From positions 1-64,000 of the forward strand of contig JAPKGU010000002.1 in the NCBI GenBank assembly GCA_026647565.1: DNA of 64,000 bases, written 5' to 3'. Source of the DNA: Phycisphaerales bacterium. GTDB taxonomy: Bacteria > Planctomycetota > Phycisphaerae > Phycisphaerales > UBA1924. The stretch's first letter is position 1. Every line of letters begins with the position of its first letter. Position numbers and translations under genes: made by a program. This document shows positions 1,430 to 19,775 of this stretch, one piece after another. The notes beneath the pieces are model-generated. The model did no database searches, was not told where the DNA came from, and saw nothing but the letters and a program-made list of their open reading frames with translations.

Positions 1430-4105
1430 TCAGTGCGCACCCACGCCGTTCGAGACCGCGTCGAGTCGCAGGGCCCGCCGCGGAACCGGCGGCAGCTCCC
1501 ACTGGCAGATGCCCTTGACGCCGAACTCTCGCTCCAGAAGCCCCATCTTGCGCTCAGCACCCCAGAGATCCGTCGTCGGGCGCTCCGACGCGCGAACCGA
1601 GAAGACGATCTCGCGGTCGCCCTCGCCCACGCGGGGCATCACCAGGCGAACCTCCTCGACGAGTTGGCTGTGCGCACGATCCAATCCGTCCGCCACCCGA
1701 AGCACGGCCGCAAGCTGACGAACCAGCCGGCGATCCGACTTCGAGAGCTTCGAGTACGCGCCGTGGCGACTCGCCGGCTCGACTCTTCGATGGTACCTCG
1801 CGACATTGGCAACGATCGCGATCTGCCGACGCGTAAGCCCCTGCAGATCGCTGTTCAGAATCAGACGAAGACTGTGCTTGTGGTGGCCGGCGTAGTTCAC
1901 GAGATAACCGATGTCGTGGAGCACCGAAGCGACCTCGAGAAGCAACCTCGCCTCGGCGCTTCCCGACCGGCGTCCCAGAAGCGAGTGGCGGACCATCTGG
2001 TCGAAGATCGACACCGCCAGTCGCGCCACCTGCTCCGAGTGTGCCTTCTCGTAACGGCAAGAGTCCGCGAATCGCCTCGCGTTGCTCAGGACCCGAGACG
2101 CCGGCGTTCCGCTCGATGCCTGCGGCGCCGGCGCCCGGCTCTCAGCGATCATCGAGATCACCAGGCCGTCCCGGACTCCCTTCTCGTGCACCCAGAGCCG
2201 ATTCACGTCCAGATGCCTCAGCACCCCCTCCGCAATGGCCGCGCCGCCGACGATGATGTCCGCCCTCTCCGGACTCATTCGCGGCAGTCTCATGCGATCG
2301 CGAAGCCCCATCGACCCGAGACGGTCGAGCAGGTGACGCACCTCCGATCGTCTCAGTTCCGCCCCCGGAACACCAGACCCGACCTTTCCGCTCGCCCCGT
2401 CTTTCGCGCCCGCAAGCGTCGCAAGAGCCGTGAATGTTCCGCCGGTGCCGACCACGATCGTGGGGACCAGCGGCACCGTCGGGAGCGCCTGGCGCAGGCA
2501 TCGGGCCACGTACCGCCTCATACGCTTGACCAGGGCTTCTCCGCCCCTCTCCGCGAACATCTCCGACACTCGCACGGCGCCGATCGGAATCGAGCACACA
2601 AGCTCGATCACGCCCTTGGTCGAAAGAACAATCTCGGTGCTGCCCCCGCCGATGTCGACGACCGCGGCGTGCACGTCCGACAGATCGAATCCCGCTGCGG
2701 CGCTCCGGAACGCGTTTCGGGCCTCGTCCTCTTCCGACATGATCTCCAGCGTGACCGCGGCATTCTCCCGCACCAGCGCCAGGAACTCCCGCTGGTTCGT
2801 CGCGTCTCGCACCGCGGACGTGCCGATCACTCGAAGCTTCGACACGCCGTATCCCTGCGCGATGCCGCGCATGCGAGCGATGCACTGAGCGGTCTTGACC
2901 ATCGGAGCCGACGCAAGCATGCCAGTCGACACGAGGCCCTGCCCAAGACGCGTCGTCTCCTTCTCATCGTCGAGCGTCCGGTATGTCCCGTCCGAGAGCA
3001 CCTCAACCACAAGCAGGCGGACGCTGTTGCTTCCGACGTCGATCACCGCGATGCGATCGTCCCTCGGCTCCGTCCGCCCGACAGCGTTCTCCGCGGGGGC
3101 CGTTCCGACGAGGTCTCGCGGCATGGCAACGGACGCGTCCGACGCCCACGCGCGAAGCTCGTGCACCAGTGACGCCAGCACGCCCGCACCGTGGCGATCC
3201 CTCACGCCCGCGAACAGACGCCCCCGTTCGGCCTCCACTTCCGCGAGCACCTCGCCCCTCTCGGCAATGCCGCGCCGGCTCAGCGACTTGAGAGACTCCA
3301 CGACGGACTGAAAGTCGCCAAGGTCCGCCAGGGCGCCCAGCGTCTCTTGCTCAGCAGAAAGCCGGTTGAGCACGCGCGAGCAGAGCTCCGGCGGCACGCA
3401 CGCCGCCGAGAGTTCAACGAGGTACCGAAGTCTCTTGAGCGAGAGCCGGAGCGCATGCATGTCCTCGACCGACTCGGGTAGCGCAAGAAAGTGCGCCGAC
3501 ATCTCATCCGTCACCGCGAGAATCCGCGCAACCGCGGCATCGGAGAAGAGACGCGGTCCGGCCATTGGCGGCCGCGCGCCGCGGGCCGCTTCGGACGCAT
3601 CGTCCTGAAGACTGGAGATGTCCTTACGAAGAATCTTGCGTCGAACGCGTTCCAGGTGCTTCTCGCGGAGGGCCACGACCGCCTTGAGGATCACCTCCGA
3701 GTCTTCGCCCGAGTCCCGGAGCTGCTTCAGCCGTCCGATCGCCACATCCAGCTGCCGCGCCTTCGCCACGAGCCGACGCCAGAACTTGCAGTGGCCGAGG
3801 AGTCTCGCCGCTTCCTGCTCTCCGATCGAGTCGGCGACAAGCTCGGTCACGGCCTCGAGTCGGCGGGTCGCGACGCGCAGCCGATGGACTCTTCCCGGCG
3901 TCGGTCCATCGCGCCGAATGGAGCGGGCGACCCTCGCCACCTGACGCGACGAGGAAAGAACAAGAACGGGCGCGACCGCGTCCAGCGGGAATGCCGCGCC
4001 GGGCGTCGTCTCCGGTGTGATCGCGCTCGCGGCCATGGGTGCTCCAACGCCTCGACTGAATCTTAAACCGACACGTCGTCGGCTCCGCTTTCTGCCGGAG
4101 AACAC
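1430..4105 (-). CDS. CHAD domain + Ppx/GppA phosphatase + HD domain fusion protein (start may be internal, at MAASAITP, about 4036)
   Basis: CHAD-like His/Arg-rich helices (VHRLRVATRRLEAV..., MHALRLSLKRLRYLVEL), then Ppx/GppA signature (IAVIDVGSNSVRLLVVEV; VVDIGGGSTEIVLS), then HD region (VLHDIGYLVNYAGHHKHS). Confidence 0.85.
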   Translation of the reverse strand: MFSGRKRSRRRVGLRFSRGVGAPMAASAITPETTPGAAFPLDAVAPVLVLSSSRQVARVARSIRRDGPTPGRVHRLRVATRRLEAVTELVADSIGEQEAARLLGHCKFWRRLVAKARQLDVAIGRLKQLRDSGEDSEVILKAVVALREKHLERVRRKILRKDISSLQDDASEAARGARPPMAGPRLFSDAAVARILAVTDEMSAHFLALPESVEDMHALRLSLKRLRYLVELSAACVPPELCSRVLNRLSAEQETLGALADLGDFQSVVESLKSLSRRGIAERGEVLAEVEAERGRLFAGVRDRHGAGVLASLVHELRAWASDASVAMPRDLVGTAPAENAVGRTEPRDDRIAVIDVGSNSVRLLVVEVLSDGTYRTLDDEKETTRLGQGLVSTGMLASAPMVKTAQCIARMRGIAQGYGVSKLRVIGTSAVRDATNQREFLALVRENAAVTLEIMSEEDEARNAFRSAAAGFDLSDVHAAVVDIGGGSTEIVLSTKGVIELVCSIPIGAVRVSEMFAERGGEALVKRMRRYVARCLRQALPTVPLVPTIVVGTGGTFTALATLAGAKDGASGKVGSGVPGAELRRSEVRHLLDRLGSMGLRDRMRLPRMSPERADIIVGGAAIAEGVLRHLDVNRLWVHEKGVRDGLVISMIAESRAPAPQASSGTPASRVLSNARRFADSCRYEKAHSEQVARLAVSIFDQMVRHSLLGRRSGSAEARLLLEVASVLHDIGYLVNYAGHHKHSLRLILNSDLQGLTRRQIAIVANVARYHRRVEPASRHGAYSKLSKSDRRLVRQLAAVLRVADGLDRAHSQLVEEVRLVMPRVGEGDREIVFSVRASERPTTDLWGAERKMGLLEREFGVKGICQWELPPVPRRALRLDAVSNGVGAH

Positions 4106-4278: not shown

Positions 4279-5145
4279 ATGACGACCAAAGGCCGACCGG
4301 CCCCGTGGTGGGGTGTCCCCATCATCGCCCTCACGCTTGTCTTCTCCTCGGGATCCTCCAGCCGAGTCAGTGATTCGTGGTATCCGGCCGTCTCGAGGCC
4401 GTCGGAGCTTCGCGAGCTGGCTGTTGCCGTTCGCGGACGAGTGGAGCGGGTCAGCGTTCAGCCGGGCGACGCCGTAACACCGGGGCAGGAGATGCTCGCG
4501 CTCGAGGACGCGGTGCAGCGCCGCAGCATCGAGCTGGCCGAACTCGCCTCCGCAGACGACTCCGCCGTCAGGAACGCCGTGCTCACGCGCGATTACTGGG
4601 CGGAGGAAGTGCGGCTCACCCGCGAGTCGCTCTCACAGGGCGGGGCGAGCGAGACCGAGCTTCGCGACGCCATGTACAAGCTCGGTCAGGCCGAACTTGC
4701 GCTCATCGCCAGCCGGCGTCAGCACGAAGAAGCCCGAGTCCAGCTCGAGCGCGAGCGCGCCCGACTCGACGAGATGCGCGTCGTCAGCCCGATCGCCGGA
4801 CGCGTGCTCGAAGTGCACAAACGCAAGGGCGAGACCGCCGACGAGCAGACCAAGGTCATCACCGTGGTCTCCGTCGATCCGCTCTGGCTGGAGGTCAACG
4901 TGCCCACGCGGGACTCCCTGTCGCTCCGCTCGGGCGGAGCGGCTCTGGTCCGATGGCAGGACGTCGGCGACGATGTGCCCGAGATGAATGGAAAGATCAT
5001 CTTCATCTCGCCAGCGGGGCATGCCGGTGCGCGCCAGGTGCAGGTCCGGGTGGAAGTTTCGAACACTCGATCGCTTCCCAGCGGACTCCACGGAAGCGTC
5101 AGATTCCTCGCCTCCGGGGAACCCGGGGGATCGGTTGGCCCCTGA
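4279..5145 (+). CDS. HlyD-family periplasmic adaptor / membrane fusion protein
   Basis: Biotinyl-lipoyl-like half motifs around a coiled coil: AVRGRVERVSVQPGDAVTPGQEMLALEDAV ... VVSPIAGRVLEVHKRKGE. Confidence 0.75.
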   Translation: MTTKGRPAPWWGVPIIALTLVFSSGSSSRVSDSWYPAVSRPSELRELAVAVRGRVERVSVQPGDAVTPGQEMLALEDAVQRRSIELAELASADDSAVRNAVLTRDYWAEEVRLTRESLSQGGASETELRDAMYKLGQAELALIASRRQHEEARVQLERERARLDEMRVVSPIAGRVLEVHKRKGETADEQTKVITVVSVDPLWLEVNVPTRDSLSLRSGGAALVRWQDVGDDVPEMNGKIIFISPAGHAGARQVQVRVEVSNTRSLPSGLHGSVRFLASGEPGGSVGP

Positions 5146-5304
5146 CCCCCCCGCTGCTACCCTTAGGCCCCCTCGTCGCCGCCGGGGAGACCGAGCGCAA
5201 CGCGAGGCCCCGACTCTGGACGGCGACCCTTCGAGCGCGAGCCACACACCACGGCCTGCGCGAGCGTTCCTCAACACGTCACAACTCTTTGAAAGGACAA
5301 GCAC

Positions 5305-5640
5305 ATGGCAGAGAACTCCGGTCAGGATCAGTCGAGGCAGATCCAGCTCCGCATCGACGAGTCCAAGATGTCCACGACCTACGCCAACACCATCCGCACC
5401 TCCACCACGGCCGACGAGGTCGTCCTGGACTTCGGCATGAACCTGCCGATGCAGACCGGCGACAACCAGCAGGTCATCATGTTCAACGTCGGCAGCCGGG
5501 TCATCATGAACTGGGCCGGCGCCAAGCGACTGGCGATCAGCCTCGGCCAGGTCGTCCGACAGTTCGAGGATCGCAACGGCCAGATCTCGCTCGGGCCTGC
5601 CGGTCGTCCCGATGGCGACGGCCCGAAGCTGAGCCAGTGA
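5305..5640 (+). CDS. DUF3467-family small protein
   Basis: IQLRIDESKMSTTYANTIRTSTTADEVVLDFGMNL...NVGSRVIMNWAGAKRLAISLGQVVRQFE is characteristic of DUF3467 proteins. Confidence 0.75.
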   Translation: MAENSGQDQSRQIQLRIDESKMSTTYANTIRTSTTADEVVLDFGMNLPMQTGDNQQVIMFNVGSRVIMNWAGAKRLAISLGQVVRQFEDRNGQISLGPAGRPDGDGPKLSQ

Positions 5641-5689
5641 CCGTGGCGGCCTCCGCGGCACATCTCTGAGTCACGGAGTCGCTCGCACG

Positions 5690-7606
5690 ATGTCAAGGGA
5701 CGCCTCTTTGATCAAGGACGGCGATTCAACCAGCGGCGCACAGGCGATGGAAGCATCGACCGTCGCGCCGCTGGTTGCGTTCCTTGACTCCCTTCTCGCT
5801 CATCAGGTCGAACTGAGCGGTGCGGAGGCCGGCGTTGTCTGGCTTCGCGCAACAAGAACACGCAAGGCCGGGCCGGTCGCTATTCGCCAGGACCGGATCG
5901 ACCCGGCAAGGACCGGCGAATGGCTCCCGTCCGTCTCGCAGCGCATCGAACGCGTTGCCGAGTCGCTCGGCGAAACCTCATCACCAGCCGCAGCGACGCG
6001 ACCAATCGTTGAGCCGATCCGCATCGGCCGCGACGGCGTCTACCAGGCGGGCGCGTCGCACCTCGTGGCGATCGTGCCCCTCAGCGCCGCAGGAACAATC
6101 GAGGGATTCACGGGCCTGCTGCTGCGTTCCGTCGACCAGAAGACCGCCTCCGAAGGTGCGCTGCGGGCCAGTCTCGCCGGGATCGGATTCGAGGCATTCC
6201 TCTGGCAGCAGAATGCCGTCCGCGAGGGTGAGCAGCGCGTTCGACTGAAAGAAGTGCTGGAACTCACCGACGCCGCGCTCCAGGGCAGCGACGCAAAGGC
6301 CATGTGCGCGATCCTCTGCCATGAACTCCGGCGCAGGTACGCATGCGAACGCGTCTCGATCGGCTTGATCAAGGGTGAGTCGATCGCTGTCGCAGGAATC
6401 AGCGGCGCCGACACCGTAGACACCCGTTCCCCCGCGGCGGAGACACTCCGTGACGCGATGGAAGAGTGCGCAATCCAGGACACCGAGATCTTCTACCCGA
6501 AGCCGCCCGAGAGCGAGCACGATCCGATGACCCGCAGGATCACGATCGCCCACGAGCGGCTCTCGCAGAAGGACGGGCCTTCATCGATCCTGAGTCTTCC
6601 GCTCAGGATCGAGGGCGACCTCGTCGGCGTGATGGTCCTTGAGAGGCCGTCGAACGATCCCTTCCCTCCCGGAGCCGCCGCACTCCTCCGCCTTGTCGCC
6701 GAGTTCATCGGCCCGGCGGTGTGGACACGTCGACTCGCCGATCGCGGCGTCGCCGCCGTTGCCCGCGACCGCTGCATCGACCTTGGCCGCGCCATCGTCG
6801 GCCCAAGGCACACCGGCTGGAAACTCGTCGGCGCGATCCTGCTGCTGGCCTTCCTCGGGCTCGCGGCGATCCCAATTCCGGATCGGGTGCGCGCCCAGGC
6901 GGAAGTACGAGCGATCACCTCTCGGACGATCCCGCCGCCCTTCAACGGATACTTCGTCGAGACTCTTGTGAAACCCGGCGACCACGTGCGGGCCGGAGAC
7001 GTCCTCGGCCGCATGGACATCAGCGAGCTGACGCTCCAACTCGAGCAGGAGCGCGGCAAACGCGAGGTCCTCGAGACCGAGCGTGACAACGCGCACGCGT
7101 CGGGCGATCTCTCCACGTGGAGGCGAGCCGCACGAGGCATCGACGAGACCGACGCCAAGATCGCGCTTCTCCAGTCGAGCATCGCACGCGCAGAGGTTCG
7201 GTCACCGATCGACGGCGTCGTCAGCCGCGGAGACCTCGACGACTTCGTCGGCGCACGCGTCGAGCCGACGATGGCACTCTTCGAGGTCGTATCGCCCGGA
7301 CGACTCGCTATCCTGAGAGTCGACGAGCGCGATGCCAGGCGAGTCAAGCCGGGGCAGCGCGGCTGGATTGTCTCCGCCGCGAACCCCGCGAGGAAAGTCC
7401 CGATCATCGTCGAACGCATCAACCCGTCGGCGGACGCCGACGAGGGCGCAAACGTGTTCCGTGTCGAAGCATCGATCTCAGATCCTCCGGAGTTTCTGAA
7501 TCCCGGCACCCGGGGCAGGGCCAGACTCCGCGACGGGTGGACGACCGGCCTGGCCGCCCTCGCTCGCCCGATTGTCGATGAGATACGACTTCGGTACTGG
7601 TGGTGA
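5690..7606 (+). CDS. GAF-domain / HlyD-type periplasmic adaptor fusion protein
   Basis: N-terminal GAF-like region, single TM (LVGAILLLAFLGLAAIPI), then PPFNGYFVETLVKPGDHVRAGDVLGRMD...SPIDGVVSRGDLDDFVG (adaptor halves). Confidence 0.75.
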   Translation: MSRDASLIKDGDSTSGAQAMEASTVAPLVAFLDSLLAHQVELSGAEAGVVWLRATRTRKAGPVAIRQDRIDPARTGEWLPSVSQRIERVAESLGETSSPAAATRPIVEPIRIGRDGVYQAGASHLVAIVPLSAAGTIEGFTGLLLRSVDQKTASEGALRASLAGIGFEAFLWQQNAVREGEQRVRLKEVLELTDAALQGSDAKAMCAILCHELRRRYACERVSIGLIKGESIAVAGISGADTVDTRSPAAETLRDAMEECAIQDTEIFYPKPPESEHDPMTRRITIAHERLSQKDGPSSILSLPLRIEGDLVGVMVLERPSNDPFPPGAAALLRLVAEFIGPAVWTRRLADRGVAAVARDRCIDLGRAIVGPRHTGWKLVGAILLLAFLGLAAIPIPDRVRAQAEVRAITSRTIPPPFNGYFVETLVKPGDHVRAGDVLGRMDISELTLQLEQERGKREVLETERDNAHASGDLSTWRRAARGIDETDAKIALLQSSIARAEVRSPIDGVVSRGDLDDFVGARVEPTMALFEVVSPGRLAILRVDERDARRVKPGQRGWIVSAANPARKVPIIVERINPSADADEGANVFRVEASISDPPEFLNPGTRGRARLRDGWTTGLAALARPIVDEIRLRYWW

Positions 7607-9801
7607 TCCCGATGCCCACACGCCAGGCCTCCCCCACATTCAGCGACGTGTGGTACAAGGTGGCTCAGACCCGCCCCCGCGTCAGCCCCCACGCCCGGAT
7701 CGTGCGACAGCGCTTCGGCGGCGGCACCGCCTACGTCATCGAAGAGACCGCGGGCAACGCCTTCTACCGCCTGAGCGAGGCCGCGTATCGATTCGTCGGC
7801 CTGCTCGACGGCAGTCGAACGGCGGACGAGGCGTGGGAGGCGTGCGCGTCGCAGATCGGCGACGACGCCCCGACGCAGAGCGAGTGCATCGAGCTCCTCT
7901 CCACGCTCGATTCCAGCGGTCTGCTGATCGGCGACACGTCGGTCTGGGCCGACATGCTGGAGCACCGGCAGGCCGCCTCCCTCACATCCCATCGTCGCAA
8001 GCGGACGGGCCTCGGCCTCTTCCCATGTCTGCCGCTCATCAATCCGGACCGGCCGCTCGACCGATGTCTCCATCTCTATCGCTGGCTCTTCGATTGGCGC
8101 GGCGCGGCCTTATGGACCAGCGTGATGCTCGTCGCGCTCGTGATGCTCGTCTCCAACGCCCCCCGCTTCGCCAACGAGCTCGACCTCTCGGCCATGCTCG
8201 ACCCTCGCAATCTCGCGATTGTCGGCATCGTCTTTCTCTGCCTCCGAATCATCCACGAGCTGGGGCACGCCATGGCCTGCAAGGCCATGGGGGGCAGATG
8301 CACGGAGATCGGCGTCATGCTGGTCGCCATGATCCTGCCGCTCCCTTACTGCGACGCAACCAGTTCGTGGGCGTTCCCGGCGACAAGGCGACGCGTGCTC
8401 GTCGCCGCCGCGGGCGTCTACGTCGAGATGTTCATCGCCGCGATCGCGGCCATCCTCTGGGCCAGGTCGGACCCTGGGCTGTTCAGCGCCGTCTGCCGCA
8501 ACGTCATGGTCGTGTCCGGCGTCGCCACGCTTCTCTTCAACCTGAACCCTCTGCTGCGATACGACGGATACTACATCCTCAGCGACGTGCTCGGCATCCC
8601 GAATCTCTCGCAGAGGGCCAATGAACTCTGGAAGCACGGCATCACACGCTACGCCTTCGGCGTACGCGGGGGCCGCCCCCCGCTCCTCCGCGATCGCAAG
8701 GAGCTGATCATCGTGGCGATGTACGCCGCGATGTCCGTGCCCTACCGGATATTCGTCACGCTCACGATCTGCCTGGTCGTGACCCAGAAGTACTCGTCTC
8801 TCGGGCTGGTCCTCGGCGTGTTGTGCTTCGTCATGATGGTCGTGTGGCCGATCCTCAAGGGAATCGGCTACTTGCTCGTCTCGCCCGCGTTGCTCGGGAG
8901 GCGCGTGCGGGCGATCTCCGCTGTCGCGGGCGCCGCCAGTGTCGTGACGGTCGTGCTGGGACTCATACCGGTGCGCGAGCACGTGGACGCGCCCGGCTGG
9001 ATCCACTCGACCAGCAGCGCGGTCGTGCGCGCAGGAGAGAACGGCTACGTGGCCGAGGTGCTCGCCCATGTCGGGCATGAGGTCAACGCCGGCGATCCTC
9101 TCCTTCGACTGGAGAACCCCGAACTGACCGCAACGTACCTCGCCGCGTCCGCTCGACTCGCCCAGGCCGAAGCCGCGCTCGACGAGGCGTCGATCAAGTC
9201 CCCGGCCGATCGTCGCGCCGCGCAGGCACAACTCGCCTTCGCGACCGAAGATGCGGCCGAGGCCGCGTCTCGAATGGAGTCTCTGACGCTTCGTGCCGCA
9301 GAGTCGGGGACGCTGGTCGCCACCGGCGCTTCCGCGACGGACTGGGAGAACCTCCAAGGCAGCTTCGTCTCCAAGGGCGCACTCCTCGGCCGGGTCGTCT
9401 CGCTCAAGGATGTTCGAGTCCGGACACTCGTCGACGATCGGGACTTCGAGCACGCGTTCTCCCGCGCCGACAGCATCAAGGCCCGGGTGAGAGTCCGTGG
9501 ACTGGCCGGGCGGGACGTGCCGGTCCGCATCGAGCGCATCGCACCCGCGGGCTCTCTCGATGTCGCAAACCCGGCGATGGCGAACGTTGCGGGTGGCGAG
9601 GTGGCCGTCCGACAGACGCAGGAAGGCCGGTACGAGACGCTCAGCCCTCAGTTCGTGGTCGACCTCCTTCCACTCTCGGACTCGGCGCCCGGGATGATCG
9701 GTCAGCGTGTTCGCGCTCGCTTCCTGATCGATCGACGCCCGCTCGCCTCACAATGGCTGAGGAGACTCGAGCAGTTCTGGGACGAGAGGTTCGGAGGATG
9801 A
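7600..9801 (+). CDS. PqqD-like + M50 site-2-type metalloprotease with C-terminal biotinyl-lipoyl/HlyD region
   Basis: IIHELGHAMACKAMGG (HExxH) and NLNPLLRYDGYYILSD (M50 second motif), multiple TMs, lipoyl-like half ENGYVAEVLAHVGHEVNAGDPLLRLENPEL. GTG start at 7600 overlaps the preceding gene. Confidence 0.8.
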   Translation: MVIPMPTRQASPTFSDVWYKVAQTRPRVSPHARIVRQRFGGGTAYVIEETAGNAFYRLSEAAYRFVGLLDGSRTADEAWEACASQIGDDAPTQSECIELLSTLDSSGLLIGDTSVWADMLEHRQAASLTSHRRKRTGLGLFPCLPLINPDRPLDRCLHLYRWLFDWRGAALWTSVMLVALVMLVSNAPRFANELDLSAMLDPRNLAIVGIVFLCLRIIHELGHAMACKAMGGRCTEIGVMLVAMILPLPYCDATSSWAFPATRRRVLVAAAGVYVEMFIAAIAAILWARSDPGLFSAVCRNVMVVSGVATLLFNLNPLLRYDGYYILSDVLGIPNLSQRANELWKHGITRYAFGVRGGRPPLLRDRKELIIVAMYAAMSVPYRIFVTLTICLVVTQKYSSLGLVLGVLCFVMMVVWPILKGIGYLLVSPALLGRRVRAISAVAGAASVVTVVLGLIPVREHVDAPGWIHSTSSAVVRAGENGYVAEVLAHVGHEVNAGDPLLRLENPELTATYLAASARLAQAEAALDEASIKSPADRRAAQAQLAFATEDAAEAASRMESLTLRAAESGTLVATGASATDWENLQGSFVSKGALLGRVVSLKDVRVRTLVDDRDFEHAFSRADSIKARVRVRGLAGRDVPVRIERIAPAGSLDVANPAMANVAGGEVAVRQTQEGRYETLSPQFVVDLLPLSDSAPGMIGQRVRARFLIDRRPLASQWLRRLEQFWDERFGG

Positions 9802-11789
9802 CCCTCGCTCCGGCCGACACCCGGCTCTGGAACTGGCTCGGCCACCCGACTCGACGCGGCCCGGCGCCCAAGGGTGTCGACGCGATCAGCCAGAAGGTGC
9901 GGGGCTGGCACGCGCGACGCAAGGCCGGATCGACACTCCGCGAAATCGCCGTGTCGGCGGTGGAAGAGTCGGACTCCCTTCGCCACGTTGCCGACGCGGA
10001 TCTCCGTGCGCGAATGGACGAGGCCAGACGCCGTGCGGTCGTCACGAGTCGGGACGAGACCGTCATCGCCCATGCCTTTGCGCTGATGCGTGAGGTCGTC
10101 CGGCGCGAGGCGGGCGTCTCGCTCCATCCCGAACAGCTCATGGGCGCACTGGCCATGTCCCGCGGCGCCTGCTGCGAGATGGCCACGGGAGAGGGAAAGA
10201 CGCTCACCGCGATCCTGCCCACCGCCCTGCTCGCATGGCGAGGTCACGGCGTCCACGTGATCACCGTGAACGACTACCTCGCCGCACGCGACGCGGAGCT
10301 GACACGCGCCATCTACGCTCGGCTCGGCGCGTCGGTCGGCGTCGTGACGGATGCCACGAAGGAGGCCGATCGGCGCGACGCGTACGCCCGAGATATCACG
10401 TACGTGTCGGACAAGCAGGTTGTCTTCGACTACCTCCGCGACCGCCTCAGGACCCCCGCCTCGCCCCGCCTTGTCTCCCACCTGATGGAGCAGATCGACC
10501 CGGACGGCTCGAACGGCGCCCCCTGGTCGAGCCGGGTCGTGCAGAGGGGACTCTTCGCATGCGTCGTTGACGAGGCCGACAGCGTGCTGATCGATGAGGC
10601 GGTCACTCCCGCGATCATCGCGACCGACTCCGGTGACGCACGGGCCTCCCGGGCGGAAGTCTACTACGCGGGCGCCTCGCTCGCTCGCTCGCTCATCGAG
10701 GGTGACCATTACGTCGTCGACACCCGCCTCCGACGTGTTCGCCTCACTTCCTCCGGCAGAGAGGCCCTTGGCGGGCTGGCAACGGGTCTGCCACCCTTCT
10801 GGCGCGGGCCGCGAAGGCGTGAGGAACTCGTCACACAGGCCCTGACGGCGCTCAAGCTCTTCTCGAAAGACGATGAGTATGTCGTCGTTGATGGCAAGGT
10901 GCAGATCGTCGATCCTTCCACCGGCAGAATCCTCGAAGGGCGACAGTGGCAACTCGGGCTCCATCAGGCCGTCGAAGCCAAGGAGGGCCTCGAGATCTCC
11001 GAGCCGCGCCGCGCCTCCGCACGCGTCGCCTACCAGCGGTTCTTCCAGATGTACCGCTTTCGCTCCGGGATGAGCGGCACCCTCTGGGAGGTCCGCAACG
11101 AACTCTGGTCCGCCTATGACCTGCCCGTGGTGCGGATCCCCACGCACCGCCCGATCGCTCGCGACGAACGCCCCGACAGGTTCTTTCGATCCGAAACCGA
11201 GAAGTTCATCGCCGTCGCGGACGCCGTCGAAAGCCATCGCACCGCCGGAAGACCCGTCCTGATCGGCACGCGAAGCGTCGCCGCATCGGAACGCATGTCG
11301 ACCCTTCTGACCGAGCGATCGATCCCGTGCAGCGTACTCAACGCCAATCGCGAGGCCGAGGAGGCCGCCATCATCGCCAGAGCAGGCGAGTCCGGCACGG
11401 TCACCGTGGCGACGAACATGGCCGGGCGTGGAACCGACATCCGAATCGACGCGAAGGCCCGCGACGCCGGAGGGCTCGTGGTTCTGGCCACCGAACGCCA
11501 CGACGAGCGACGCGTCGATCGCCAGCTCTTCGGCCGCTCGGGCCGCCAGGGAGATCCCGGGATTGCGCAGGCATTCGTCTCCCTCGACGACTCCCTCATC
11601 CGCCGGCACGGCTTCCCACCCCTCACACGGCTCGCCTCCCTGCCATCCCTGCCCGGCCGGCACTTCGTGGCGGGATTGCTCTGGCGTCAGGCCCAGTGGG
11701 CCGCGGGGCTTCGTGCCGCGACCGTGCGCTCCGAGGTCGCTCGAGCCGACGCCAGACTTGAGCAGTCCCTCCGCGGCCAGAGCCGGTGA
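9798..11789 (+). CDS. SecA-like preprotein translocase ATPase, short form (accessory SecA-like)
   Basis: MATGEGKTLTAILPTAL, VITVNDYLAARDAEL, VVDEADSVLIDEAVTPAII, TNMAGRGTDIRI, FGRSGRQGDPG; about 663 aa, lacks the C-terminal zinc-binding tail; ATG overlaps the previous stop (ATGA). Confidence 0.85.
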   Translation: MTLAPADTRLWNWLGHPTRRGPAPKGVDAISQKVRGWHARRKAGSTLREIAVSAVEESDSLRHVADADLRARMDEARRRAVVTSRDETVIAHAFALMREVVRREAGVSLHPEQLMGALAMSRGACCEMATGEGKTLTAILPTALLAWRGHGVHVITVNDYLAARDAELTRAIYARLGASVGVVTDATKEADRRDAYARDITYVSDKQVVFDYLRDRLRTPASPRLVSHLMEQIDPDGSNGAPWSSRVVQRGLFACVVDEADSVLIDEAVTPAIIATDSGDARASRAEVYYAGASLARSLIEGDHYVVDTRLRRVRLTSSGREALGGLATGLPPFWRGPRRREELVTQALTALKLFSKDDEYVVVDGKVQIVDPSTGRILEGRQWQLGLHQAVEAKEGLEISEPRRASARVAYQRFFQMYRFRSGMSGTLWEVRNELWSAYDLPVVRIPTHRPIARDERPDRFFRSETEKFIAVADAVESHRTAGRPVLIGTRSVAASERMSTLLTERSIPCSVLNANREAEEAAIIARAGESGTVTVATNMAGRGTDIRIDAKARDAGGLVVLATERHDERRVDRQLFGRSGRQGDPGIAQAFVSLDDSLIRRHGFPPLTRLASLPSLPGRHFVAGLLWRQAQWAAGLRAATVRSEVARADARLEQSLRGQSR

Positions 11790-11909
11790 AGATCATCGCT
11801 CGGATTGTCCACCCCGGGGGACGGGAACCGGTAACAATGGGCATCAGGGAAGATGGCCGCCGCGTGGACACGCGATCAGGCCGCCCAGTTCGCAAGGAGG
11901 CCCTTCCGC

Positions 11910-12896
11910 ATGCCGAACACGGTTGACCTGGCGCCGCAGATCGAGGCACACGCCAGGACGTTCAAGGCCCTCACCGACGTGGTGGAGCAGGTGGTCGTCG
12001 GCCAGAGGTACATGGTCGAACGCCTGTTCATCGGTCTTCTCTGCAACGGTCACGTGCTGCTCGAAGGCGTGCCGGGGCTTGCCAAGACTCTGACGGTCAG
12101 CACGCTGGCCGGCGCGATCCACGCGAAGTTCAGCCGCATCCAGTTCACCCCCGATCTCCTGCCCGCGGACCTCGTCGGCACGCTCATTTACAACCCGAGA
12201 GACGCGACGTTCACACCCCGAAAGGGCCCGGTCTTCGCGAACATCGTGCTGGCCGACGAGATCAATCGCGCCCCGGCAAAGGTGCAGAGCGCCCTCCTGG
12301 AATCGATGCAGGAACGGCACGTCACCATCGGCGACGTCACGTACCCGTTGCCCGACCCGTTCCTCGTCCTCGCGACCCAGAATCCGATCGAGCAGGAGGG
12401 CACCTACACCCTCCCCGAAGCCCAGATCGATCGCTTCATGCTCAAGCTCCGCATCGGGTATCCCACACGAGAGGACGAGCGGAAGATCGTCGATCGCATG
12501 GCTTCCAGCGCCCCGAAGACCAGGGTCGAGGCGTCGGTCACGACGGACGAGATCGCCGCCGCCCGCCGCCTGGTCGACCAGATCTACGTCGACGATCGTG
12601 TCAAGGACTACATCGTCTCGATCGTTCACGCCACGCGCCGGCCGAAGGAGTTCGGGCTGGACATCGCGCGGCTGATCGCCTTCGGAGCGTCGCCGCGTGC
12701 CTCGATCTCTCTGACGATGGCCGCGCGGGCACACGCCTTCATGGAGGGACGACCCTACGTCAGCCCGTCCGACGTCAAGGCGATCGGGATGGACGTGCTG
12801 CGTCATCGCGTCATCACAAGTTACGAAGCCCAGGCGGAGGACGTGACCTCCGAGGACGTGGTCCGGAAGGTCTTTGACCATGTTCCGCTCCCGTAG
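11910..12896 (+). CDS. MoxR-family AAA+ ATPase
   Basis: VLLEGVPGLAKTLTVSTLA (Walker A), IVLADEINRAPAKVQSALLESMQERHVTIG; ORF track start 11853, likely start MPNTVDLAPQ at 11910. Confidence 0.9.
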   Translation: MPNTVDLAPQIEAHARTFKALTDVVEQVVVGQRYMVERLFIGLLCNGHVLLEGVPGLAKTLTVSTLAGAIHAKFSRIQFTPDLLPADLVGTLIYNPRDATFTPRKGPVFANIVLADEINRAPAKVQSALLESMQERHVTIGDVTYPLPDPFLVLATQNPIEQEGTYTLPEAQIDRFMLKLRIGYPTREDERKIVDRMASSAPKTRVEASVTTDEIAAARRLVDQIYVDDRVKDYIVSIVHATRRPKEFGLDIARLIAFGASPRASISLTMAARAHAFMEGRPYVSPSDVKAIGMDVLRHRVITSYEAQAEDVTSEDVVRKVFDHVPLP

Positions 12897-13797
12897 ACCA
12901 GCCCCGCGCTTCGACGACGCCTCGCCCCTCGGACCGGACCTCGCCCGAGAAGTTCGTCGTCTTCACGTGCTCACGCGCCGCAGGGTCAGCGATCTGCTCG
13001 CCGGAGAATACCACTCCGCTTTCAAGGGGCACGGCATCGAGTTCGCCGAGGTGCGAGAGTATGAGCCGGGCGACGATGTACGCTCCATCGATTGGAACGT
13101 CACCGCACGCACCGGAAAGACCTTCATCAAGCGATTCGTCGAGGAACGACAGCTGACCGTTGTTCTCGCCGTCGATCTCTCACGCTCCGGCGCCTTCGGA
13201 ACAAGGACGCGAACCAAGCGACGCCTCGGCGTCGAATCCGCGGCAGTTCTCTCCCTCGCCGCCACGCAGAACCAGGATCGCGTCGGCCTGATGCTCTTCA
13301 CCGATCGAGTGGAGAAGTTTGTCCCGCCTCGAAAGGGCGGCCCCCACTGTCAGCGGCTCATCCGCGATCTCCTGGCGTTCGAACCCGAAGGGGCCGGAAC
13401 CGATCTTGCCGCACCCATCCACCATCTGGCCAGGATGCTGAAACGGCGATCGCTCATCTTCCTCATCTCCGATTTCGAGGCGCCCTCGTTCGCATCGGAC
13501 CTTGCGGTGCTCGGTCGACGCCACGACGTTGTCGCCCTCTCCATCTCCGACCCCGCCGAGCGTCACGTACCGCCGCTCGGGCTGGTGGACGTCGTCGATC
13601 CCGAGACCGGACACATCCGTACGGTCGAACTCGGTCGCTCCGGATCAAAGCGGTACCAGACCGAGTGGAATCGACGCCGGGAAGTGATCGAACGCTCGCT
13701 CGCCGGTGCCGGTGTCGACGTCGTCCCGCTCTCAACCGATCGGCCGTTCGTGCAGGACCTTGCCGCGTACTTCCGTCGCAAGGAGGCCCGCCGATGA
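12874..13797 (+). CDS. DUF58 domain-containing protein
   Basis: GHGIEFAEVREYEPGDDVRSIDWNVTARTGKTFIKRFVEERQLTVVLAVDLSRSG. Confidence 0.9.
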   Translation: MTMFRSRRPAPRFDDASPLGPDLAREVRRLHVLTRRRVSDLLAGEYHSAFKGHGIEFAEVREYEPGDDVRSIDWNVTARTGKTFIKRFVEERQLTVVLAVDLSRSGAFGTRTRTKRRLGVESAAVLSLAATQNQDRVGLMLFTDRVEKFVPPRKGGPHCQRLIRDLLAFEPEGAGTDLAAPIHHLARMLKRRSLIFLISDFEAPSFASDLAVLGRRHDVVALSISDPAERHVPPLGLVDVVDPETGHIRTVELGRSGSKRYQTEWNRRREVIERSLAGAGVDVVPLSTDRPFVQDLAAYFRRKEARR

Positions 13798-14801
13798 GGC
13801 CTCTGCGCACCCTCGCCGCCGTCGTCGCAGTGCTCGTGGTCGCCGTGGCCGGCTGCGACCGCCCCAAGACGCCACCGGACGCACCCGCACCAGACGCAGG
13901 CGTCAGCCGATCCGCGGGCAGCCCGCTCGCAACGCTGACCGTTCGGGTCCAGAGCGACACCATCGCCACGAGCGACCTCCTGAACGTCGACGCGATCGTG
14001 ACCGCGGCAGACGTCGCAAGAGTCAGCACGCCGGAACTCCCGTCCACGGATGCCCTCCGAGTCGTCGAATCCTGGGCGTCCCCGTCGGTCATGCGATCCG
14101 ACGGGTCCGTCGAGCAGGTGTGGAGCTTCAAGCTCGAACCGGATCTCCCCGGCACCTTCGAGCTCCCCGGCACGCGCGTGGGCGTGCGGAACGCCCAGAC
14201 CGGGGAAGTTTCGTTCCTCACCACCGAAGCGATCCCCATCACCGTGAGGTCCCTGCTCGATGCCGACGACGCCGCTGTCTCCGAGCTTCGCACCGTTCCC
14301 GCGCCGCCTCCGACGTCGGGCACGATCACCCAGACCATCGGCTCGCTGACCGCGGGCGTCGTGCTCGCCGCGATCGTGGTGCTCCTGCTCATCGCCGCAG
14401 GCGTCACGCTGCTCGTACGGCGAAACCGGGTTCGATCCATCATCCCCGGCTCCCGCCGCGAGCTCTCACGACTCATGCAGTCCGTCCCGGACCTCGACGG
14501 GACCGCTCGTGCCGCCGTGCTCGCGGACGCGTCCAGAATCCTCAGACGCTGCATCGCCGAGCGGGCCGGCGTCGATGCGACCACCATGACCATTGCCGAA
14601 ATGGCGTCCGCGTGCCCCGAGGTTCTCGAGCTCGGCCGGATCCGAGGCGCCCTCGAGGCGGTCGAATCGCATCTCTTCTCCGGCAGCCCCGTCGAGCCGG
14701 ATCTCGCCGAATCCGTCCTGCGATCCATCGACCAGTCGCTCGATGAACTCGCCACCTTCGTGCCCACGAAGTATGTGGACCCCATCGGGGGTGTCGCATG
14801 A
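13794..14801 (+). CDS. Lipoprotein/membrane protein of the Bat operon (BatD-like, N-terminal lipobox)
   Basis: MRPLRTLAAVVAVLVVAVAGCDRPK lipobox; internal TM; position between DUF58 and vWA genes; start overlaps the DUF58 stop. Confidence 0.65.
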   Translation: MRPLRTLAAVVAVLVVAVAGCDRPKTPPDAPAPDAGVSRSAGSPLATLTVRVQSDTIATSDLLNVDAIVTAADVARVSTPELPSTDALRVVESWASPSVMRSDGSVEQVWSFKLEPDLPGTFELPGTRVGVRNAQTGEVSFLTTEAIPITVRSLLDADDAAVSELRTVPAPPPTSGTITQTIGSLTAGVVLAAIVVLLLIAAGVTLLVRRNRVRSIIPGSRRELSRLMQSVPDLDGTARAAVLADASRILRRCIAERAGVDATTMTIAEMASACPEVLELGRIRGALEAVESHLFSGSPVEPDLAESVLRSIDQSLDELATFVPTKYVDPIGGVA

Positions 14802-15862
14802 GCTTCCAGTACGGCTCCTCATGGGCGTTCTTGCTCCTGATCGTTCCGGCAGCCCTCCTCGCGGCCCGCCTCTTCCGCGCCCCGCCTCCGCTCGTCCTGC
14901 CCGGGGCCTCGCACCTCGCCGGGTTCTCGTCCCTTCGCCTGCACTTCCGCGCGCTGCCGCTCATTCTCCGCGCGGCCGCCTTGGCAATGCTCGCCATCGC
15001 CATCGCCCGTCCGCAGACGCTCACCGGACGCGTCGAGACCTCAAAGGAGGGCGTCGCCATCCAGATCGTCATCGATCGCTCCGCGAGCATGGGTGCACCG
15101 ATGGAGTTCGATGGCCGCTCCCTTGAGCGGATCGAGGTCGTGAAGCGAGTCCTCAGAGACTTCCTGCTCGGCGACGGCAAGACACTCAAAGGCCGCCCCG
15201 ACGACCTCGTCGGACTGATCGTCTTCTCCGGCTTTGCTGACACCCTCGCGCCGCTCGTGCACAACCACGACATCGTCGTTGACATGGCGATGTCCACGCA
15301 GCTCGCGCCCGCGGCACTGCCCGAGGGCGGCACCGCAATCGGCGACGGACTGGCGCTCGCCGCCGCCCGACTCAAGTCCGCCGAGGAGCAGATCCAGAAA
15401 CGCGCCAAGGCAGGCATTCCACCCGATTTCAAGATCAAGAGCAAGGTCATCGTGCTGCTCACAGACGGCGAGCACAACCGGGGCGAGGTGCTCCCCGAGG
15501 ACGCCGCCGCCATCGCCGCAGAATGGGGCATCAAGATCTACTCCATCGGCATCGGCGGCACCGGCGGCGTGGTCTTCATCCGTGGCGCCGACGGCCGTCA
15601 ACGCATCCCCATTCGCGACTACGTCGATGAGCGCACGCTCACCGCAATCTCCCAGAGAACCGGCGGGAAGTACTGGAACGCTCGAAACGCCGAGTCGCTC
15701 CGAGAGATCTACGCCGAGATCGACCGGCTCGAGAGAGTCTCCGTCACATCCCAGAGACGAACCATCTACGAAGAGAAGTTCCCGCCTCTCGCCCTCGCCT
15801 CGCTGTGGCTGCTCGCGGCCGAGATCTTCCTGTCTGCAACACTGCTCCGGAGGTTCCCGTGA
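14798..15862 (+). CDS. batA: vWA domain protein, BatA-like
   Basis: TM helices, then IQIVIDRSASMGAPM (MIDAS DxSxS) and VIVLLTDGEHNRGEVLPEDAA. Confidence 0.85.
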   Translation: MSFQYGSSWAFLLLIVPAALLAARLFRAPPPLVLPGASHLAGFSSLRLHFRALPLILRAAALAMLAIAIARPQTLTGRVETSKEGVAIQIVIDRSASMGAPMEFDGRSLERIEVVKRVLRDFLLGDGKTLKGRPDDLVGLIVFSGFADTLAPLVHNHDIVVDMAMSTQLAPAALPEGGTAIGDGLALAAARLKSAEEQIQKRAKAGIPPDFKIKSKVIVLLTDGEHNRGEVLPEDAAAIAAEWGIKIYSIGIGGTGGVVFIRGADGRQRIPIRDYVDERTLTAISQRTGGKYWNARNAESLREIYAEIDRLERVSVTSQRRTIYEEKFPPLALASLWLLAAEIFLSATLLRRFP

Positions 15863-16860
15863 CCGGCCTCGTCGCACCCGACAACCTCGATCTCCTCTGG
15901 CTGGCGCCGGCGCTGCTCGCGTTGCTCGTGTGGGCGTCGCTGAGAAGGCGAGCCATCGCCCGGAGCATCGGCCGAGTGGAGATGATCGGCCGGCTCGTCC
16001 CCGCCTCCCTCGCGTGGCGAAGGGCCGTTTCGGCAACCCTTGTGCTTCTCTCCTGTGTCGCCATCGTGGCCGGCCTCGCCCGCCCCCGCGGCGAGCCGAT
16101 CGAGCAATCCGCCACCGTCTCCGGCCGAGACGTGGCGTTCGTTGTGGACGTCTCGCGCAGCATGCTCGCCACCGACGTCTCACCCACGCGACTCGATCGC
16201 TGCAAGGTCTGGATGAAGGACGTCCTCGACACGCTCGACGGCGATCGTGCGGCGCTCGTGGCCTTCGCGGGCACTGCGTCCATCAAGTGCCCCCTCACGC
16301 TGGATCGGACGTTCCTTGAGATGCAGATCGATGATCTCGCTCCCGGATCCGTTGCCAGGGGCGGCTCCCTGATTGGTGACGCCATCCGCAAGGCGGTCAA
16401 CGAAGTCTTCGCCCAGGACTCCACGCGCCATCGCGACATCATCCTCTTCACCGACGGCGAGGACCAGGAGAGCTTCCCGGTCGAGGCGGCACGCGCCGCC
16501 GCGGAGAAAGGCATCCGCATCATCGCCATCGGCATCGGCAGCGACACCACCGGCTCCCCTGTCCCCGCCCCGACCGACCGCCCAAACCCCGAGTACCTGA
16601 GCCACCGTGGGGAACGCGTCGTCTCAAGATTGAATCCGACCACGCTTGCCGAGATCGCGACCGCGTCCGCAGGCGGCGTGTTCCTGAACGTCGGCACAGG
16701 CACGATCGAGCTCGACCGTGTCTACGCGGACCTCGCAAGGCACCTGCCCACGTCCGAGATCCGGGTGGACTCAACCACCGCTTTCGAAGAACTCTTCCAG
16801 ATCCCGCTGCTCATCGCGTTCGTCCTGCTTGCCCTGGAGGGACTCATCCGTGATCGCTAG
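15859..16860 (+). CDS. batB: vWA domain protein, BatB-like (GTG start)
   Basis: DVAFVVDVSRSMLATDVSPTRLDRCK, IILFTDGEDQES; C-terminal TM. Confidence 0.85.
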   Translation: MTGLVAPDNLDLLWLAPALLALLVWASLRRRAIARSIGRVEMIGRLVPASLAWRRAVSATLVLLSCVAIVAGLARPRGEPIEQSATVSGRDVAFVVDVSRSMLATDVSPTRLDRCKVWMKDVLDTLDGDRAALVAFAGTASIKCPLTLDRTFLEMQIDDLAPGSVARGGSLIGDAIRKAVNEVFAQDSTRHRDIILFTDGEDQESFPVEAARAAAEKGIRIIAIGIGSDTTGSPVPAPTDRPNPEYLSHRGERVVSRLNPTTLAEIATASAGGVFLNVGTGTIELDRVYADLARHLPTSEIRVDSTTAFEELFQIPLLIAFVLLALEGLIRDR

Positions 16861-18013
16861 CCACGCGCTCGCCGCTCTCCTCGTCCTGGGCCACACCCCG
16901 AGCGACGCTCTCGCCGATTCCGTGATCCGGCGCACGATCATCCGCGCCACGCACGCCTACGAGAGACAGGACTTTGAAGGCGCCGTGCAGGCGTACGCCG
17001 CGATCCCACCCACGCCCGATCGGCCCGCGACCATCTGCTACAACGAGGGCCTGGCCTTCGCGGCGCTCCAGGATCGCGCACGCGCCGCTCAGGCGTTCCG
17101 CCTTGCGGACCTCAACGCGACAGACCCCGCCATGCGTGCCGCCGCCAGGTTCAACCTCGCCCGCATCCGGTACGAGAACGCCATGGAACTGGCCGCCCGC
17201 GAACCAGAACAGGCGATCGAGGAGCTTCGCGACGTCGCTCGCACCTTCAGATCAGTGCTGGAGGTCGATCCGAACGACGCCGACGCCGCTCGCAACGTCG
17301 AGCGAGTCCGCCTGGAGATCCGCCGGCTCCAGGAACAACTCAGACAGGAGGCGGAGCAACAGGACCAGCGACGCGAGCAGATGCAGAATCTCGCGCAGCA
17401 GCTCCAGCAGCTCGCCGAACGCCAGCGCCAGGCCGCAGACGAGAGCCAACGCGCCGAGCAGCAGATGCAGCAGGACTCCGCCGTGGGCGCGGAGGCCGCG
17501 CGACAGGCCCGCTCCACGCAGGACCCCATCTCGGAAGAGACCGAGAATCTCATGCAACAGGCGCTCGACATGCTCCAGCAGATGGGCGAGACCGAGAGCG
17601 GCCAGACCGAGGTCTCGGAGGCGCTCGGGCAGATGGCCCAGGCCAGGCAGGAGCAATCGCAGGCCGACCAGGAGCTCTCACGCTCGCAACCCGGACCCGC
17701 CGAGCAGGACCAGCGCGACGCCGCCGACCTGCTGCAGCAGGCCGCCGAGCGGATGTCGCAGGCAGGAGGGGGCGAGCCGGACGAACGTCCCGGCCAGGGC
17801 CCCGGACAAAACCAGCCGGAGCAGAGCGGCGAGCAGCCCGGCGACGGCCGTCAGGAACAGGAGACACAGGCCCAGGGACCGCCCCGACAGGTCGAACGCA
17901 CCGGCAGAGCCGACGGCGATCCGATCGCCCGTCGCCTGCTCGAGAAAGAGATCCTCGACAGGGCGAACCGCATCCGTCGCGGGCCTCCCATTCCGGTGGA
18001 AAGGGACTGGTGA
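16850..18013 (+). CDS. batC: TPR / Gln-rich coiled-coil protein, BatC-like (GTG start)
   Basis: TPR-like segment (TICYNEGLAFAALQDRARAAQAFRLADLN) followed by an EQQ-rich coiled coil; position in bat operon. Confidence 0.7.
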   Translation: MIASHALAALLVLGHTPSDALADSVIRRTIIRATHAYERQDFEGAVQAYAAIPPTPDRPATICYNEGLAFAALQDRARAAQAFRLADLNATDPAMRAAARFNLARIRYENAMELAAREPEQAIEELRDVARTFRSVLEVDPNDADAARNVERVRLEIRRLQEQLRQEAEQQDQRREQMQNLAQQLQQLAERQRQAADESQRAEQQMQQDSAVGAEAARQARSTQDPISEETENLMQQALDMLQQMGETESGQTEVSEALGQMAQARQEQSQADQELSRSQPGPAEQDQRDAADLLQQAAERMSQAGGGEPDERPGQGPGQNQPEQSGEQPGDGRQEQETQAQGPPRQVERTGRADGDPIARRLLEKEILDRANRIRRGPPIPVERDW

Positions 18014-18017
18014 TCGC

Positions 18018-19775
18018 ATGACCCGCTTCGCATCCATCGCGCTCCAGATCGCGATTCTGCTCGGCCTCGCGTCCCCCGCCGTGGCCGACGACCCCCAGAT
18101 CACGCTGCAGGTGAGCGCCACCGACATATACGCCGACGACGTGCTCACGCTCGTCATCAAGGTGTCGCGCCATGACCAGCCGATCGGGACCATCGATCCG
18201 GCCTTCGATGCCAGCAACGACTTTGAGTTCTCTCAAGGGTCCGTCATGCAGGGAAGCCAGACGACCGCTCGCCTCGACGGCAACCGGGCCGTGCGCGCCG
18301 TTCGATTCGACACCAGCATCCAGTACTCGCTCTCACCGAGGCGAACCGGCACGCTCACCATCCCCGCGGCAACCATCGAGATCGACGGCACTCAGTATCG
18401 CACCAATCCCGTGGAGATCCGCGTCTCCACGCCCCCCGTCGCAGACTTCGCGACCGTCTCGCTCCTGCCCACGGATACGGTGGCCTATGTCGGGCAGGCG
18501 ATTCCGATGCGGCTCGCGTGGGAGATCAACAGAGACATCGAAGACGGTCGAATGATCGGAGACGACCTCCCATTGGGCGCCGAGATCTTCTCCGCTGCGC
18601 CGACCGCTGCCGACGTCCAGAGCTCCACTTCGCTCAACTTCATGGGCAAGTCGATCCCCGCTGCTGTCACCCGGAGCACCGGCGGCGTCGGTCTCAAGGT
18701 GGATGCGCCCTTCCGAGTCGTCTTCGACACGCCCGGCTTCCACACCCTGGGCCCCGTCGGCGTCGTCTTCACCGCTCGCCAGGGCAACGCAACACGAAGA
18801 TTCTCCGCCGAGTCCCAGCCCGTCACCGTCGACGTGCGCCCCCTCCCCGAGCGGAACCGCCCGGAGACCTTCAGCGGCATCGTCGGGCCATGCGAGATCC
18901 AGACGAGTCTCTCTTCCTCCTCGATGCGAGTCGGCGATCCCGTCACGCTCACGGTCCGGCTCAAAGGTGAACTCCCACCCTCACGTCTTCCCGCGCCGGC
19001 CGTCCACCTTCAGAAGTCGATCACCGAGGCGCTCCGCCTCGCACCTGGCGGCTGGGTCGACGGAGGCGAGCAGGGCGAGTGGCGGGTGTACAGCATGACC
19101 GTGCGCCCCCAGATCCCCGCGCTCAAGGAGGTGCCGCCGATCGAGGTTTCGTACTTCGATCCCGCGTCGGCCGAGTATCGCGTCGCAAAGAGCAGACCCA
19201 TCCCTGTCACCGTCGAGGCGTCTCGACAGGTCACCGCCGCCGACGCGATCGGTGCTGGCGGGCGAGCGATCGCGCCGGAGACGCTCCCCAGCGCCGAACC
19301 CGGCATCCGCGCCAACCAGACCGGCAAGGATCGGCTGATCCAGGAGTCGTTCGACCTCGACGCACGTCTCCGATCCCCGATCGTGTTCGGCGTCCTCATC
19401 GGCGCGCCGGGCCTATGGACCGTCGTCGCAGGCACCGCGTTCATCGCACGCCGCTCCAGCCCCGCAAGACGCCGCAGAGCCAGACTCCTCCGGTCCGCTG
19501 GTTCTCTCGCTCGTTCCGCCGATCCGAGCCGACGGGCGCTCGCCGCCCGATCCTTCGTCGCGGCACACACGGACCTCGATCCCGAAGCCGTCACCATGCT
19601 CGATGCCGAACGCCTTCTCGAATCAACGCACACGGAGGACCGAGTGACCATTCTGAACGCTCTCAGGGACGCCGAGGCCGTCGACTTCGGGCGGGCGCCG
19701 CCCCCCTCGCCATCGGGGACGAACCTCCGCGGCGCGATCCGCTCGCTTGCACGCCGCCTGGAGGACCAGGCATGA
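18018..19775 (+). CDS. batD: BatD-family (oxygen tolerance) protein
   Basis: Signal peptide MTRFASIALQIAILLGLASPAVADDPQITLQVSATDIYADDVLTLVIKV...; C-terminal TM; typical BatD layout. Confidence 0.8.
   Translation: MTRFASIALQIAILLGLASPAVADDPQITLQVSATDIYADDVLTLVIKVSRHDQPIGTIDPAFDASNDFEFSQGSVMQGSQTTARLDGNRAVRAVRFDTSIQYSLSPRRTGTLTIPAATIEIDGTQYRTNPVEIRVSTPPVADFATVSLLPTDTVAYVGQAIPMRLAWEINRDIEDGRMIGDDLPLGAEIFSAAPTAADVQSSTSLNFMGKSIPAAVTRSTGGVGLKVDAPFRVVFDTPGFHTLGPVGVVFTARQGNATRRFSAESQPVTVDVRPLPERNRPETFSGIVGPCEIQTSLSSSSMRVGDPVTLTVRLKGELPPSRLPAPAVHLQKSITEALRLAPGGWVDGGEQGEWRVYSMTVRPQIPALKEVPPIEVSYFDPASAEYRVAKSRPIPVTVEASRQVTAADAIGAGGRAIAPETLPSAEPGIRANQTGKDRLIQESFDLDARLRSPIVFGVLIGAPGLWTVVAGTAFIARRSSPARRRRARLLRSAGSLARSADPSRRALAARSFVAAHTDLDPEAVTMLDAERLLESTHTEDRVTILNALRDAEAVDFGRAPPPSPSGTNLRGAIRSLARRLEDQA

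Follow-up and report, generated by a model that had tools for sequence, protein, structure and literature searches.

A short-SecA/M50-HlyD locus in a Phycisphaerales bacterium as a probable export machine for LEPR-XLL-leader proteins

Five adjacent genes in a 64,000-nucleotide stretch of DNA from a Phycisphaerales bacterium (hereafter the window) form a conserved multi-gene module of envelope adaptors, an intramembrane protease and a short SecA-like ATPase. Across many phyla the module tracks with giant proteins carrying an N-terminal LEPR-XLL motif, and it is therefore most likely their dedicated handling and export machine. Specifically, the locus probably encodes an envelope machine for proteins with LEPR-XLL leaders, typically giant repetitive surface proteins, which it would recognise, process and carry out of the cell. 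The locus itself and the idea of a SecA-powered machine were already published in 2015. Kamneva, Poudel and Ward described 'secondary SecA_DEAD' proteins without SecA_SW in several phyla, whose genes adjoin M50-HlyD, GAF-HlyD and HlyD genes, with OEP genes in some cases, and proposed a type-I-like machine with SecA as the ATPase and M50 as the pore (PMC4452313). Their paper, in which the locus of Methylorubrum extorquens AM1 is META1p2399-2402, left the substrate unnamed and called the biological role unknown, and neither DUF3467 nor PqqD appears in its text. The assignment of LEPR-XLL proteins as the substrate appears to be the new part; no transport system tied to the motif (NCBIfam NF012209) was found in the open-access literature searched, and an unseen paper or database note may have made the link before.

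Genes and products of the locus

The five genes lie consecutively on the plus strand at positions 4279–11789, and coordinates and Pfam agree with the order and overlaps given in the first-pass annotation of this DNA. The first gene (4279–5145) encodes a HlyD/RND-type periplasmic adaptor of 288 aa with a hydrophobic N-terminus (Pfam HlyD_D23/HlyD_3 at ~1e-18, HlyD_D23 at 1.5e-18). It is followed by the gene of a small DUF3467 protein (5305–5640, 111 aa, Pfam 3e-17) and by a fusion of a GAF domain with an HlyD adaptor (5690–7606, with the start at 5690 or 5747), identified with Pfam and NCBIfam. In this fusion, GAF covers residues 203–343 (Pfam GAF, 1e-9) and the adaptor begins at about residue 394 (HlyD_3, 7e-12). 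The Pfam matches thus uphold the earlier description of two adaptor proteins, one of them GAF-fused. The third and fourth genes overlap at 7600–7606, the fourth and fifth in an ATGA at 9798–9801. The predicted DUF3467 structure contains three strands and a long helix (pLDDT 84). Compared with PDB folds, it gave zero matches at E ≤ 0.001, and SecB was absent among the best hits, so a role as a SecB-like chaperone was dropped.

The fourth gene (7600–9801, plus strand) encodes a 733-aa protein in which a putative PqqD (RRE-like) domain, an M50 intramembrane protease and an HlyD adaptor are fused. In Pfam, Peptidase_M50 (3e-4) and PqqD (5e-4; 20.8 bits vs 23.4) both fall under their curated cut-offs. 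These weak calls are supported by an NCBIfam match, by invariant motifs and by a confident structural model. The NCBIfam model 'daptide intramembrane metalloprotease' aligns to residues 43–421 with 166 bits, under its own cut-off, and spans both the PqqD and the M50 region. Both site-2-type protease motifs, HExxH and NxxPxxxxDG, are present, and HExxH (H219, E220, H223) and NxNPLxRxDG (N314–G323) are invariant in 39 sequences. The AlphaFold model has a mean pLDDT of 90; residues 32–105 fold into three strands and three helices in PqqD-like order, HExxH sits in helix 202–229 of a helix bundle, and the C-terminal adaptor part matches AcrA/MexA structures.

The fifth gene (9798–11789, plus strand) encodes a short SecA-like ATPase of 663 aa with both nucleotide-binding domains and the PPXD (Pfam SecA_DEAD 7e-83, P-loop_SecA 1e-53, PPXD 2e-24). 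The GEGKT (Walker) and DEAD-type motifs are invariant. The profile of the short SecA aligns with Bacillus subtilis SecA only up to residue ~608, so that the protein has neither the helical wing nor the two-helix finger and retains little of the scaffold. The earlier description of a SecA of about 663 aa without the C-terminal metal-binding tail is correct, and the loss is larger than it stated. In canonical SecA, the wing and the two-helix finger engage SecY; these parts, expected of an accessory Sec SecA, are absent from the short SecA. A separate full-length SecA is encoded on another contig of the same genome (C215). A maximum-likelihood tree places short SecAs from several phyla in a clade of their own, split from the planctomycete housekeeping SecAs with a support of 100/100. 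The short SecA was therefore rejected as the housekeeping copy, an identity that the first-pass annotation had left open.

Two further kinds of SecA-like sequence were observed. Proteins of ~626 aa occur in three planctomycete genomes (L159 8267–10147 in G080, L168 7777–9657 in G072, L169 8300–10183 in G068), where they adjoin a gene for ~1,017–1,068 aa and genes for ~395 aa, and they form their own tree branch; the neighbours in L169 include an LptD-like protein, a class V aminotransferase and a weak HlyD match. In the window's genome, a frame at positions 1–2035 of contig C209 (L004) opens with SecA sequence that differs from the other SecAs of the genome and then continues into unrelated sequence that shows signal-peptidase-like features. 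This contig end seems to be chimeric or a contaminant.

Pfam detects no ABC exporter among the five genes, and no TolC-type outer-membrane protein was found among the scanned genes of the window's locus. The earlier statement that no TolC is encoded nearby thus holds for this locus, but OEP (outer-membrane) genes are present in several related loci. On the minus strand at 1430–4105, a single protein fuses CHAD, Ppx/GppA and HD domains. Downstream, positions 11853–20602 contain genes for a MoxR ATPase, DUF58 and VWA proteins and then more genes in one Bat-like run, and the MoxR-DUF58-VWA order is repeated in genus mates and in L030. Because these genes (11853 onward) are common only to the genus and a few relatives, they were excluded as parts of the system.

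Distribution of the locus and its linkage to LEPR-XLL proteins

Among 101 relatives within Phycisphaerae, 73 have the M50 gene, and 71 of these also encode the short SecA; the other 28 relatives have neither. This answers the question raised in the first-pass annotation of whether the genes occur together in other genomes. A scan of 84,980 species genomes provided a cross-phylum set of 80 loci, which spans Alpha-, Beta-, Gamma- and deltaproteobacteria, Nitrospirota, Verrucomicrobia, Omnitrophota and more. In these 80 loci M50 was called in 73, GAF-HlyD in 69, SecA in 67, HlyD in 48 and DUF3467 in 17, with some genes missed by the gene finder; some locus counts are lower bounds, with gene calls missing or on the wrong strand in L041, L173 and L183. 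An HlyD-related gene is found in 14 of 21 planctomycete loci, and the same fraction applies to DUF3467. GAF-HlyD adjoins the M50 gene in nearly all loci of both the planctomycete and the cross-phylum set. As the gene order recurs across phyla, the locus is more than a chance arrangement. The window's genome (G000) contains a second copy, with the HlyD, GAF-HlyD and M50 genes at the end of contig C31 (L171) and a short SecA at the start of contig C255 (L003); the two pieces are probably one locus split by the assembly. Full-length ABC exporters lie near only 3 of 73 related loci. Given the conserved module, the separate SecA and the co-occurrence, the earlier view of a non-standard export machine is very probably right.

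Several neighbours were set apart. A sulfatase/fucosidase (L034) and a helicase (L039) adjoin the locus and were not considered cargo candidates. Proteins of ~259 aa form a cluster from nine loci of the cross-phylum set (e.g., L083 2643–3440), and the member scanned is a SapC protein (PF07277).

A first pointer to the cargo is given by giant ORFs adjoining two planctomycete loci, which start with LESLEDRVLLSG and LEALEAKILLSAEL and match NF012209 (LEPR-XLL), one of them barely below the cut-off (16.9 vs 17 bits). The model is only 24 residues long, and single weak matches, the window's own included, are therefore uncertain. Among the 101 Phycisphaerae relatives, LEPR-XLL proteins (E ≤ 0.01) occur in 54 of the 73 genomes with the M50 gene vs 1 of the 28 without it (p = 3e-11), and the corresponding figures are 16/46 vs 1/150 in a Planctomycetota-wide sample (p = 1e-10), 18/26 vs 4/173 in the family of Roseovarius (p = 6e-16) and 10/10 vs 0/138 in the family of Dyella (p = 1e-15), p values that ignore kinship and of which the two planctomycete ones share some genomes. 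In the family of Dyella, LEPR matches below 1e-6 are found in exactly the ten genomes having a full-type M50. In other groups, LEPR matches that exceed the curated cut-off are found in 28 of 30 system-bearing genomes; most of the ORFs concerned are several thousand aa long, the longest 14,390 aa. A match at E ≤ 0.01 is missing in 19 of the 73 system-bearing relatives. Conversely, three genomes (G046, G261, G602) have LEPR-XLL matches where the M50-HlyD gene was not found, which may reflect gaps, chance or another route.

Physical linkage is close in proteobacteria: in 24 of 30 cases, no more than 6 kb separate the M50 gene from one end of a LEPR ORF (2,246–17,824 aa), and in four genomes that possess two systems, each system has its own adjacent giant. 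L166 and L167 show the contiguous order giant, (DUF3467), GAF-HlyD, M50, SecA, and HlyD-like or other. Planctomycete genomes contain a larger number of LEPR genes, which are mostly dispersed (up to 37 matches in one genome, G084), and in the relatives of the window's bacterium most of them lie away from the locus. This distribution suggests that one planctomycete system serves several cargo proteins. In a rough hydropathy test, none of seven LEPR leaders showed a hydrophobic core of the signal-peptide kind; the leader is a mostly polar stretch with a final LE-P-R-x-L-L-S/A-x-D. Some LEPR giants contain RTX-type repeats, which often accompany type I secretion.

The window also contains a candidate substrate of the LEPR-XLL type, found by motif scan on the minus strand at 20610–22793 (727 aa, N-terminus MARDAGSGRSVAVAFECVELEPRRLLAG). 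It matches our own LEPR profile with E = 9e-4, a profile built including this sequence. The protein is not among the NF012209 matches at E ≤ 0.01 and has no Pfam domain at 1e-4. As its basis is the motif MARDAGSGRSVAVAFECVELEPRRLLAG and a profile containing the same sequence, it is treated as a candidate only. Further LEPR-type N-termini are encoded on contigs C26, C25, C24 and C192 of the window's genome. Other proteins of this genome (L192, L194, L195, L196) have LExRxL[LM]A-type N-termini, in several cases followed by an SLRQAI/TLREAI stretch, and are likely further cargo. The first-pass annotation overlooked the likely substrate of the system, the LEPR-XLL proteins, including a candidate inside the same window.

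More divergent M50-HlyD genes (E of about 1e-55 to 1e-100) lie in loci without SecA. These loci have adjacent ORFs of ~2,600–4,550 aa, accompanied either by an OEP gene plus one or two HlyD genes or by DUF3467. The N-termini of their giants read ALEPRxMFDGA, LEPRQMYDGA or PLEPRIMLDGNLEW, i.e., leaders of the LEPRx[ML][FYL]DGA type. The motif is followed by D in all 17 giants of SecA-less loci and by S/A in all 7 beside SecA-bearing loci (p = 3e-6), counting only neighbours found without requiring S/A/T after the motif; a comparison with a regular expression that demands S/A/T is biased on the SecA-bearing side and was not used. In three scanned M50 proteins of SecA-less loci, PqqD was not detected by Pfam. 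Since both leader types occur beside M50-HlyD, the LEPR leader goes with M50-HlyD as a whole, and the short SecA accompanies one leader type. The existence of SecA-less M50-HlyD loci with LEPR-type giants also means that the short SecA is not universal in the wider family.

Proposed mechanism and alternative readings

In the proposed mechanism, the M50 protein would bind the LEPR leader through its cytosolic N-terminal PqqD/RRE-like domain, and the short SecA ATPase would feed the unfolded chain. M50-HlyD, GAF-HlyD and the separate HlyD may together span the membrane and periplasm as a conduit that ends at an outer-membrane protein of the TolC type, encoded in the locus or elsewhere. The intramembrane M50 protease would cut off the leader, and the GAF domain probably senses a signal. 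M50-HlyD is thus proposed to be leader receptor, protease and channel core at once. PqqD-like domains act in leader recognition in peptide pathways. From this role and the architecture of the protein we infer that the domain reads the leader, and from the invariant catalytic residues that M50 removes it. A motor function of SecA is suggested by its invariant ATPase motifs, the coupling of the genes and the rarity of ABC exporters (3/73). The missing wing and two-helix finger, together with seven leaders without a hydrophobic core, point to a route through M50/HlyD instead of SecYEG. The most far-reaching version of the model can be put forward only tentatively: a translocase independent of both SecYEG and ABC exporters, in which a minimal SecA threads giants through M50/HlyD, the RRE reads LEPR and the protease releases the product, with a SecA-less branch reading LEPRx[ML][FYL]D.

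In the main rival to this model, the locus serves the maturation, anchoring or quality control of LEPR proteins, which themselves cross the inner membrane via SecYEG or an ABC type I exporter encoded elsewhere, with the short SecA assisting in the manner of SecA2. Related M50 proteases do work in peptide maturation, SecA-less variants exist, some giants carry RTX-type repeats, and the SecA2 proteins of Gram-positives use the canonical channel (PMC4452313). However, the short SecA lacks those parts with which canonical SecA engages SecY, the inspected leaders have no hydrophobic core of the signal type, few of the loci include ABC exporters, and three adaptor-type proteins plus the OEP genes favour a trans-envelope path. 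We therefore regard this rival as unlikely, although it deserves more weight than the following two.

A general type-I-like exporter with many or non-protein substrates, for which the LEPR link would be secondary, corresponds to the 2015 idea without cargo specificity. It agrees with the adaptor-rich locus and SecA as a possible ATPase (PMC4452313), and with LEPR genes that mostly do not adjoin the locus in the window's relatives, but in proteobacteria systems and giants pair one to one, also in two-copy genomes, which makes this reading improbable. That the genes are housekeeping or degenerate, a SecA fragment and adaptors without joint function, is hardly credible: SecA is indeed truncated compared with the full-length protein, yet the latter is encoded separately in the genome, the M50 and SecA motifs are invariant, the gene order is kept across phyla and the co-occurrence of M50 and short SecA contradicts such a reading.

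If the preferred reading of a dedicated LEPR-XLL exporter is true, it joins two orphans: a SecA locus that had no known cargo and a motif at the N-terminus of giant proteins that had no known transporter. It would explain the exit of proteins that are among the longest in bacteria (ORFs reaching ~17,800 aa), and the LEPR tag would predict the secretome of the system. Whether SecA can act without SecY could then be addressed directly by experiment in cultured organisms, for example Methylorubrum and Dyella.

Comparison with known systems

The closest description is the secondary SecA_DEAD locus of 2015. The window's locus shares with it a SecA without scaffold and wing that stands apart from the housekeeping SecA, the neighbourhood of M50-HlyD, GAF-HlyD and HlyD genes, and an overlapping range of phyla. 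Beyond the 2015 description, the present analysis adds the link to LEPR-XLL, a SecA-less variant with LEPRxMFDGA leaders and the two-paralog structure. Type I secretion (HlyB-HlyD-TolC) is similar in its HlyD adaptors, in the OEP genes of some loci and in giant repetitive cargo, partly with RTX repeats. In contrast, 70 of 73 loci have no full-length ABC exporter, and a SecA-like ATPase and an intramembrane protease are found instead. Furthermore, LEPR cargo has an N-terminal leader. A C-terminal uncleaved signal is typical of type I cargo, and RTX-type repeats occur in some of the giants.

SecA2 and accessory Sec systems likewise have a second SecA besides the housekeeping copy. They differ from the present locus, in which the short SecA lacks the wing and two-helix finger and is accompanied by adaptors and M50, and in which no SecY2 was seen among the scanned locus genes or in the annotated neighbour clusters. 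In the M50 proteins of daptide and epipeptide (YydH/LiaK) RiPP pathways, the intramembrane protease likewise comes after a PqqD-like N-terminus, which is putative in the window's protein. Here, the protease is fused to HlyD, the linked protein is a giant and not a short peptide, and no RiPP enzymes were seen in the annotated loci. Finally, LEPR-XLL (NF012209) is a sequence model only; it describes the same N-terminal motif as that of the proposed cargo, and its match lies near the N-terminus of the system-linked cargo proteins.
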